A program made the translations under genes and the position numbers. DNA of 64,000 nucleotides from Oceanobacillus oncorhynchi (GTDB lineage Bacteria; Bacillota; Bacilli; Bacillales; Amphibacillaceae), in contig NZ_CDGG01000001.1 in the NCBI RefSeq assembly GCF_000821065.1, positions 4,030,001 to 4,094,000 of the forward strand, written 5' to 3'. Under the pieces are notes generated by a model. It was not told the origin of the DNA, did not search any database, and saw only the letters and a program-made list of their open reading frames with translations. Position 1 is the stretch's first letter, and each line of letters begins with the position of its first letter. This document shows, piece after piece, positions 6,063 to 8,027 of this stretch.

Positions 6063-6296
6063 TCAGTGTTTCTTATTACGTTCCTGGTAATCACGAAGCT
6101 TTTGCGGGGTCACATCATTCCCGGCCGGGTCAATGACTGTCATCCCTTTTAGATGATTTTTAAAAGAACCCCGTACATTTGCCAGGTATTCTTTTCGAAG
6201 ATTTTGCTGTTCTGTTTTTTCTTCTTCTGTTAAGCCTTCACTTTTCGCTTTATTAGCTAACATATTTATTCTATTTAATTTATCTTTAGACAACAT
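6063..6296 (-). CDS. ynzC: YnzC family protein (DUF896)
   Basis: 77 residues, rich in Lys and Glu, with the family core LNRINMLANKAKSEGLTEEE near residues 7-26 and LRKEYLANVRGSFKNHLKG after it, forming two predicted helices. DUF896 proteins are small cytoplasmic helical-hairpin proteins of unknown function that sit in the SOS cluster lexA-yneA-yneB-ynzC of Bacillus. AAGGAGGG precedes ATG. A terminator at 6315-6350 separates it from yneB, so it may have its own promoter here. Confidence 0.9.
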   Translation of the reverse strand: MLSKDKLNRINMLANKAKSEGLTEEEKTEQQNLRKEYLANVRGSFKNHLKGMTVIDPAGNDVTPQKLRDYQERNKKH

Positions 6297-6361: not shown

Positions 6362-7072
<711 letters not shown>

Positions 7073-7145
7073 TTACAGAATCTGTCTTACCAGCATATTT
7101 GCTCTCTACAAAATAAGCAAGGAAATCAGTCGTCTGGTCAATCAC

Positions 7146-7238
7146 TTAAATTGTAACCATCATCGTATATAAAAATATTAACGCAATAATAAAAGCTACA
7201 ATATAAAAAGCATCAGACTTCATCAGTTTTTCAAACAT
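7146..7238 (-). CDS. 30-aa SOS-controlled membrane peptide in the yneA position
   Basis: Thirty codons with a GGGGAG ribosome site eight bases before ATG. The product begins MFEKLMKSDAFYIVAFIIAL and ends TMMVTI: a short basic N-terminus and one membrane-spanning helix (about residues 10-29). It is transcribed divergently from lexA from a consensus promoter (7293-7321) that encloses a perfect LexA box. In B. subtilis this position holds yneA, a roughly 100-residue division inhibitor with a membrane helix and a LysM domain; the LysM part is absent here. A role as an SOS division inhibitor, comparable to the 29-residue SidA of Caulobacter, is inferred from position, control and topology. Confidence 0.75.
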   Translation of the reverse strand: MFEKLMKSDAFYIVAFIIALIFLYTMMVTI

Positions 7239-7272
7239 ATTAAAACTCCCCTTCGATATTTTATCTGGTTCC

Positions 7273-7286
7273 GGAACAGTTGTTCT
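7273..7286. promoter_or_regulatory. LexA (SOS) box 1
   Basis: GGAACAGTTGTTCT contains the perfect palindrome core GAAC-N4-GTTC. It lies in the 5' leader of the 30-codon peptide, just downstream of that promoter's -10. Confidence 0.88.
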
Positions 7287-7292
7287 TACTAT

Positions 7293-7321
7293 AGTATATT
7301 CAGAACAACTGTTCCTGTCAA
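7293..7321 (-). promoter_or_regulatory. SOS promoter of the small peptide and yneB
   Basis: Minus strand: TTGACA (7316-7321), 17-bp spacer, TATACT (7293-7298). The spacer contains LexA box 2, so LexA binding would block RNA polymerase directly. This is among the best promoter matches in the window. Confidence 0.85.
7302..7315. promoter_or_regulatory. LexA (SOS) box 2
   Basis: AGAACAACTGTTCC, perfect GAAC-N4-GTTC core, inside the spacer of the small-peptide promoter. Confidence 0.9.
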
Positions 7322-7329
7322 TACTTTTT

Positions 7330-7343
7330 AGAACATTTGTTTG
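7330..7343. promoter_or_regulatory. LexA (SOS) box 3
   Basis: AGAACATTTGTTTG, one mismatch to GAAC-N4-GTTC. It overlaps the -35 hexamer of lexA and would give autoregulation. Confidence 0.75.
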
Positions 7344-7406: not shown

Positions 7407-8027
7407 ATGACAAAACTATCAAAAAGACAGCAGATGATTTTTGACTTTATTAAAGATCAAGTAGAGCAGAAGGGCTATCCGCCTTCCGTACGTGAAATTG
7501 CAGTAGCTGTCGGGTTAGCTTCAAGCTCTACTGTTCACGGTCATTTAGAAAGATTAGAAAACAAAGGATATATTCGGAGAGACCCGACCAAACCTCGTGC
7601 CATCGAGATCATATATAATAATGAGAATGATGCGCCTAAGGATAAGGCCATTTATGTACCTGTAATAGGGAAGGTAACAGCCGGAATCCCGATTACTGCG
7701 ATTGAAAATGTGGAAGAGTTTATTCCCGTTCCCAGCTCTTCTGCCGGACCGGAGGATAATCTGTTTGTACTTGTCATTGATGGAGACAGTATGATTGAAG
7801 CAGGCATCCTCGACAAAGATATGGTTATCGTAAAACAGCAAAGCTCTGCGGATAATGGAGATATCGTTGTAGCAATGACGGATGAAAATGAAGCGACTGT
7901 CAAACGTTTTTTTAAAGAAAAGACCCGTTTCCGCCTCCAGCCCGAAAATGCAACGATGGAACCTCTCTATTACGAAAACGTATCTATTCTCGGCAAGGTA
8001 ATCGGCTTATACCGTCATATCCACTAA
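7407..8027 (+). CDS. lexA: SOS transcriptional repressor LexA
   Basis: 206 residues. The N-terminal winged helix ([39 protein letters not shown]) binds SOS boxes. The C-terminal S24 peptidase-like domain has the Ala92-Gly93 self-cleavage site (VTAGIP), Ser128 (IDGDSM) and Lys166 (EATVKRF), so RecA-stimulated autocleavage should be intact. AGAGGGGAG precedes ATG. It is autoregulated through LexA box 3 and divergent from the SOS peptide-yneB transcript, as lexA is from yneA in B. subtilis. Confidence 0.97.

Follow-up and report, generated by a model that had tools for sequence, protein, structure and literature searches.

A 30-codon gene for a single-helix peptide with LexA boxes occupies the yneA locus in Oceanobacillus and related families

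In Oceanobacillus oncorhynchi and its relatives, the interval between lexA and yneB holds a conserved gene of about 30 codons, whose product is predicted to be a bare membrane helix. Its promoter carries LexA boxes, it does not occur together with YneA above the family cut-off in the order, and homologous copies are borne by phages and mobile elements. We consider it rather probable that the peptide is a helix-only SOS division inhibitor, which probably acts on the FtsW complex and is also used by phages.

Results

A short frame behind LexA boxes between lexA and yneB

The window, that is the whole 64-kb stretch of O. oncorhynchi DNA that was analysed, belongs to a genome of 4.6 Mb, and the LexA encoded there shares 93-96% identity with the LexA proteins of O. 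neutriphilus, O. sojae and O. jeddahense. Divergent from lexA, a 30-codon frame encodes the product MFEKLMKSDAFYIVAFIIALIFLYTMMVTI (Table 1). The initial annotation had described this frame with a good ribosome site in the lexA-yneB interval, and a TTGACA-N17-TATACT promoter with one perfect LexA box in its spacer and a second in the leader; both descriptions were borne out by the sequence and, for the frame, by the ORF list. Purine-rich sites were also found ahead of the peptide frames of relatives. Scanning the 551-base region gave 3 promoter-like sites versus 2.5 in shuffled sequences, and the scan alone is thus little proof of the promoter. The whole window has just two GAACNNNNGTTC sites, the boxes at 7303-7314 and 7274-7285, where 0.63 would be expected. 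Two or more such sites occurred in 13 of 100 shuffles, none of which reproduced the placement in a promoter spacer and a leader.

From its hydrophobic sequence and an AlphaFold2 model with one helix (residues 2-29, mean pLDDT 88.8, pTM 0.47), the 30-residue peptide is predicted to consist of a single N-terminal membrane helix.

Table 1. Features of the lexA-yneB region in the window
Feature	Position	Strand	Basis
Gene of 30 codons for a helix-only, putative SOS peptide	7146..7238	-	Sequence and ORF list (ATG 7238-7236, TAA 7148-7146), genus conservation, purifying selection, predicted single helix
Ribosome binding site AAGGGGAG	7246..7253	-	Sequence reading; 7 nt before the ATG of the 30-codon frame
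Promoter TTGACA-N17-TATACT	7293..7321	-	Promoter scan, 11/12 consensus bases
Perfect LexA box GAACAGTTGTTC	7303..7314	-	Inside the promoter spacer of the peptide gene
Second perfect LexA box	7274..7285	-	In the leader of the peptide gene
One-mismatch LexA box GAACATTTGTTT of lexA itself	7331..7342	+	Sequence reading; overlaps the lexA promoter
lexA, divergent neighbour of the peptide gene	7407..8027	+	ORF list, protein comparison
Presumed yneB (recombinase), downstream neighbour	6362..7018	-	ORF list, relatives
ynzC-like gene, next neighbour as in relatives	6063..6296	-	Same small protein in relatives

We take the recombinase gene to be yneB and the small gene behind it to be ynzC-like. The former probably starts at the TTG at 7018, which is preceded by GGAGG (7031-7027), rather than at the upstream TTG of the ORF list (7054). 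Between the peptide gene and yneB, the sequence TTGCTT-N17-TATGCT is found at 7092-7120 of the minus strand. This may be a separate, LexA-free yneB promoter in this species group; a similar element, TTTCCTTGCA...TAAAAT, lies ahead of yneB in the near relatives L002, L003 and L005, in which the gap is different.

The peptide gene is conserved and under purifying selection

For the genus we located 28 genomes via a LexA search, which matched in 28 of 28. A frame of 30-35 codons lies between lexA and yneB in 27 of them. In 25 of the 27, the frame is preceded by TTGACA, a LexA-like spacer box with at most one mismatch and a perfect box behind the promoter; the upstream sequences of the remaining two fall outside that pattern. 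The 28th genome (G008, locus L057) has a frame broken by shifts behind an apparently intact promoter.

NG86 counts over 26 core codons of the 27 sequences, which were picked with a motif and hence have some columns fixed by choice, gave a mean pS of 0.62 and pN of 0.23 over 351 pairs. The median dN/dS was 0.22 over the 145 pairs whose pS lay within 0.05-0.6. For the seven nearest genomes, pS ranged from 0.19 to 0.51 versus a pN of 0-0.064. Since the frame recurs at the locus in nearly all genus genomes and synonymous changes are far above non-synonymous ones, it is a real gene and not a chance frame. The initial annotation had staked its proposal on conservation in related species and on unequal rates of the two kinds of change. 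Both were observed, and the latter indicates purifying selection.

When 21 hand-chosen peptide sequences were aligned, M1, D9, F16 and Y24 were invariant, and Y12, L20 and F22 nearly so. No weight was given to a helical periodicity of conservation (p 0.037), as the motif-picked sequences fix some of those positions. In relatives, lexA and yneB lie about 0.25 to 1.27 kb apart, with 0.8 and 1.27 kb reached in the close species L005 and L006. Because these two keep the peptide despite the widened distance, it is independent of a close-by yneB.

Searches with the peptide found nothing over the cut-off and no LysM domain in Pfam, and no family at E<=10 in NCBIfam, so that the cut-off of the YneA model NF010723 was not reached. 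PHROGs gave weak matches only (E 0.12 and 0.18). The gene is conserved and undescribed in these three libraries.

Peptide and YneA exclude each other

Across the window's family, the peptide profile matched strongly (E<=1.6e-5) in 136 of 159 genomes, and in 152 at the lax limit of E<=1. For the best 30 matches, lexA and yneB flanked the peptide in 30 of 30. The lexA interval was examined in 25 family genomes, mostly without a strong match, and lexA was located in 24 of these. Three with weaker profile matches (G056, G105 and G109) do have the peptide there. In the 21 with lexA and without the peptide, 14 retain one LexA box only, on the lexA side, four retain the second box and three gave no clear picture; yneB was not seen in 10 of the 21. 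The lexA-side box, 56-75 bases from lexA, was kept in 18. As the strong match is missing in 23 of 159 genomes and the second box is lost in 14 of the 21 checked, the peptide is dispensable.

Among 299 genomes of the order, 35 contained the peptide at E<=1e-4 (families f1, f2, f7, f32 and f36), and two more with E about 4e-4 (G298 and G394) also carry it beside lexA. YneA exceeded the NCBIfam cut-off in 187 of the 299. Not one of the 299 genomes had both peptide (E<=1e-4) and YneA above the cut-off, for which a P of 2e-17 would require independent genomes, an assumption that does not hold here. Weaker YneA-model matches were obtained in four of the 35 peptide genomes (G205, G232, G290 and G372, E 1.3e-12 to 6.9e-12). 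We took these to be below the cut-off, since 187 of the 193 genomes with a match passed and exactly six have E >1e-12. Marginal peptide matches (E >1e-3) in five YneA genomes were taken as chance.

A full-length yneA elsewhere in the genome, which the initial annotation had named as the finding that would speak against a replacement, did not appear: the YneA model gave no match at E<=1e-11 in the genome of the window, and YneAs above the cut-off score 7e-17 or better. In the family, the model matched 156 of 159 genomes at E<=0.001; the matches listed are stretches of frames of at least 160 codons and were read as other LysM proteins. Nine of the 159 pass the YneA cut-off; among the matches listed there is one such case, a 653-codon frame of G019 that was scored together with its neighbours.

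We then took 30 further genomes of the order, 14 with and 16 without peptide matches; several of the frames at the lexA locus of the latter were read by eye. The peptide was found at the lexA locus in 14 of 14. Seven of the 16 carry LysM-less proteins of 59-91 aa at the locus (G178, G221, G163, G191, G231, G206 and G160), and seven have neither a frame nor a second box. The last two have helix-only frames with a GTG start, of 34 and 37 aa, in one genome each from other families (L151 in G199 and L169 in G192), which are possibly independent reductions of YneA. Eight of these nine LysM-less or helix-only proteins were searched with Pfam, which detected LysM in none of the eight, and found LysM at 2e-8 in a control YneA (L387). 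Because such shorter LysM-less proteins occupy the locus in several families, loss of LysM seems to have happened repeatedly. The promoter layout of the peptide gene recurs at three YneA loci, where the spacer contains a one-mismatch LexA box.

Phages and mobile elements carry related helices

Phage-borne copies, which were beyond the view of the initial annotation, are the most informative addition to it. Second profile matches away from lexA were examined at 17 places in 15 genomes. A LexA box, perfect or of two one-mismatch kinds, was present within 300-400 bases of none of the 17. We ran PHROGs on one to three neighbours of each copy (four for L178), and an integrase or anti-repressor gene was identified beside 16 of 17. 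Some copies also adjoin a repressor, Sak4, RecE-like or replication gene. Extra copies often start within, or directly behind, the preceding gene, and that of L179 is interrupted by a stop codon. The exceptional copy, L178 (G080; flanks also L480 and L481), forms the end of a longer frame. Its four neighbouring proteins gave only an esterase match in PHROGs and no phage marker, and by eye a resolvase and a transposase were seen in its flanks of 14 kb on each side. In two places, a neighbouring gene weakly resembles, below the Pfam cut-off, YqaH (before the helix, L432) or Yqai (after the helix, L436), a layout that we take to recall the early operon of the B. subtilis skin element.

A motif scan of IMG/VR yielded 90 stretches; all 90 loci were filtered and five were credible by eye, with the peptide as a short free frame. 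One of these peptides (L210) equals that of the G001 prophage, and another (L204) shares its contig with an integrase. In L216, a repressor-like gene lies before the peptide and an anti-repressor behind it, while in L226 it is the first frame after a divergent cro-like repressor with an integrase nearby. The fifth (L261) is an early-end frame on a contig with a protein-primed-type DNA polymerase and a terminase, which presumably resembles phi29-like phages; from this contig, lytic phages may also use the helix. The annotated phage records among the best 12 of 137 nearest L216 share only its anti-repressor, and no near phage record was found for L226. A second IMG/VR motif scan (at least 120 stretches, 117 new loci filtered) added none credible by eye, tblastn of a composite peptide against the phage collection gave no matches, and a profile-driven viral scan gave 173 stretches that fit the pattern, none of them confirmed. 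The empty tblastn and profile scans are probably due to short hydrophobic queries being filtered or scoring too low.

A profile of 11 phage-type helices matched the chromosomal peptide profile at E 4.7e-17. It gave two or more matches (E<=0.001) in 19 of the 159 family genomes. In 398 genomes of the class, it matched six, all from the window's family; this profile has a lower sensitivity than that of the chromosomal peptide and misses some known chromosomal copies (G053), which leaves absence elsewhere unproven.

Origin of the peptide

Two origins had been offered by the initial annotation, a YneA reduced to its helix or an unrelated replacement. The evidence leans towards reduction in locus, promoter and LysM-less proteins, and gives no such lean in the comparison of profiles, where hhalign between peptide and YneA was not significant (probability 7%). 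When N-termini were aligned with the peptide, 10 of 25 from YneA and 3 of 8 from LysM-less proteins beat their own shuffles at p<0.05; the other 15 and 5 did not. The YneA helices of L024 and L027 (Alkalihalobacterium and a relative) pair with D/E9, F16 and the hydrophobic stretch of the peptide in a gap-free alignment; shuffles as good as their scores of -0.4 and 8.3 made up a fraction of 0.0055 and 0 of 2000 (25 tests, uncorrected). Mapping K5, E6, F10, V11 and F14 of B. subtilis YneA onto the peptide was dropped, as it is ambiguous by one position.

The other origin, in which the helix did not stem from YneA but was acquired, from a phage for instance, and captured the promoter, is in our estimate unlikely, though clearly the strongest competitor. 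The missing profile match to YneA would suit it, as would the homologous helices of phages and their strong match to the chromosomal profile. However, the phage copies could equally stem from the chromosome, and the phage profile, of lower sensitivity, found its six class genomes within the window's family. In addition, LysM-less proteins stand at the same locus in other families and two YneA helices align gap-free with the peptide. This estimate concerns origin and not function, and it overlaps with that for the division inhibitor proposed above. Given the locus, the promoter, the exclusion, the LysM-less intermediates and the helices of L024 and L027, descent from YneA by loss of LysM is the likelier origin, by a clear but not a wide margin.

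Discussion

We propose that LexA represses the peptide gene and that DNA damage would switch production on. The product would be a one-helix membrane peptide with its N-terminus inside and about five residues outside, which would fill the YneA slot of the SOS response and sit in the membrane at the division site. There its helix would pack against the complex of the septal synthase, with FtsW as the likeliest partner, and the peptide alone would hold septal wall synthesis until LexA returns. The YneA of an ancestor of the Oceanobacillus-type families would most likely have lost LysM. The homologous helices that phages and mobile elements carry, mostly in early regions and without LexA boxes, would probably serve to arrest division of the host once infection or induction has occurred.

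That the bare helix can do the whole job alone is suggested because it occupies the place of YneA and because viruses carry their own copies. It also fits an active agent rather than an address label, since the helix is under selection, at a YneA-type promoter, in YneA-less genomes and in phages. The proposal is weakened by B. subtilis YneA, which, in the passages cited here, blocks septal wall synthesis via LysM and is not inhibitory as a helix without LysM (PMC13396833). By the same passages, that helix on its own arrives at the division site and binds TM7 of FtsW (PMC13396833), and by analogy FtsW may be the target of the peptide. The boldest form of the idea is that, throughout a group of Bacillales families, a bare 30-residue transmembrane helix makes up the entire SOS division checkpoint, that the helix alone switches off the septal synthase, and that temperate and probably lytic phages adopted the host brake and trigger it without DNA damage. 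We regard it as evenly balanced between true and false.

FtsW (genes L443-L472) was compared in 28 of 30 fetched genomes, with two of the 15 peptide-bearing ones dropped because no frame came through the filter. In all 13 peptide-bearing genomes aligned, the loop after TM7 has 7-8 residues fewer than in 9 of 11 YneA-bearing genomes; in LysM-less genomes three loops were short and one long. A co-change of this loop with the peptide is possible and is confounded by descent.

The main functional rival is a TisB-like pore-forming toxin, whose helix would depolarise the membrane under SOS control and lead to dormancy instead of a specific division block. Length, SOS control and the single helix would agree with TisB, a type I toxin with a structured leader and an antisense RNA. 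However, the 52 nt from the -10 element to the ATG show no more folding than shuffled sequences (z 0.11), and a promoter scan gave one weak site on the plus, antisense strand (7072-7099). The locus is that of yneA and excludes yneA, and the few strictly conserved polar and aromatic positions would suit a protein partner better than a pore. We consider such a toxin improbable. Least credible of all is a functionless yneA vestige or a leader peptide merely tuning yneB. In its favour, the peptide gene precedes yneB on the same strand in the relatives read; against it stand the selection on residues, conservation at any of the observed lexA-yneB distances and the copies that occur by themselves in phage regions. 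For the chromosomal gene we rejected a decoy in competition with YneA, which would be senseless as YneA is absent from peptide genomes.

A helix-only division inhibitor would bear on a question from the 2026 YneA work, namely which part of a membrane division inhibitor inhibits. In B. subtilis YneA the helix is the address and LysM the weapon; here selection retains the helix alone. If our proposal is true, the peptide is a naturally occurring small ligand for the division machinery that comes in dozens of natural variants as well as phage versions, and this set would make the helix-helix contact directly testable. The phage copies suggest that phages copy the host's own SOS brake.

In our literature search, we found no helix-only YneA replacement described in Bacillales, no paper combining YneA and Oceanobacillus and no experiment on this peptide; subscription journals were mostly outside its reach, and a different gene name is possible. 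Within the literature searched, the peptide would thus work like a familiar class of proteins, the SOS membrane division inhibitors, but has a form so far unreported from Bacillales.

Comparison with known systems

The closest system is YneA of B. subtilis (NF010723), whose gene is likewise divergent from lexA and upstream of yneB, with LexA boxes in and behind the promoter and one N-terminal membrane helix in the product. In contrast to YneA, which has about 100 residues with LysM, the peptide has 30 and no LysM, hardly any outer part and a stop after 30 codons, and it does not match the YneA family model. SosA of S. aureus is, in the part of the source used here, a LysM-less SOS membrane protein beside lexA that causes a late division block (PMC6851548). 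The peptide is also LysM-less and adjoins lexA, but SosA has 77 residues with a conserved outer C-terminal part, whereas the peptide has about five residues behind the helix.

SidA of Caulobacter crescentus, a 29-residue membrane protein of the SOS response, inhibits division by way of FtsW, according to the section cited (PMC4211646). The peptide shares with it a similar length, a membrane helix and an SOS-type promoter with LexA boxes (predicted control); SidA, however, belongs to a distant lineage. We know of no phage relatives of SidA. TisB of E. coli is given in the cited portion as an SOS membrane peptide of 29 aa (PMC11449926). Unlike tisB, the peptide gene is without a long structured leader. 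Gp11 of phage PhiNM1 is a small early membrane protein which blocks host division; it has 53 residues and two predicted helices and acts on MurG and DivIC, as far as the cited extract goes (PMC11237401). Like Gp11, the phage-borne helices reported here are small predicted membrane proteins carried by phages, but they have one helix each and are similar to the SOS peptide of the host itself.
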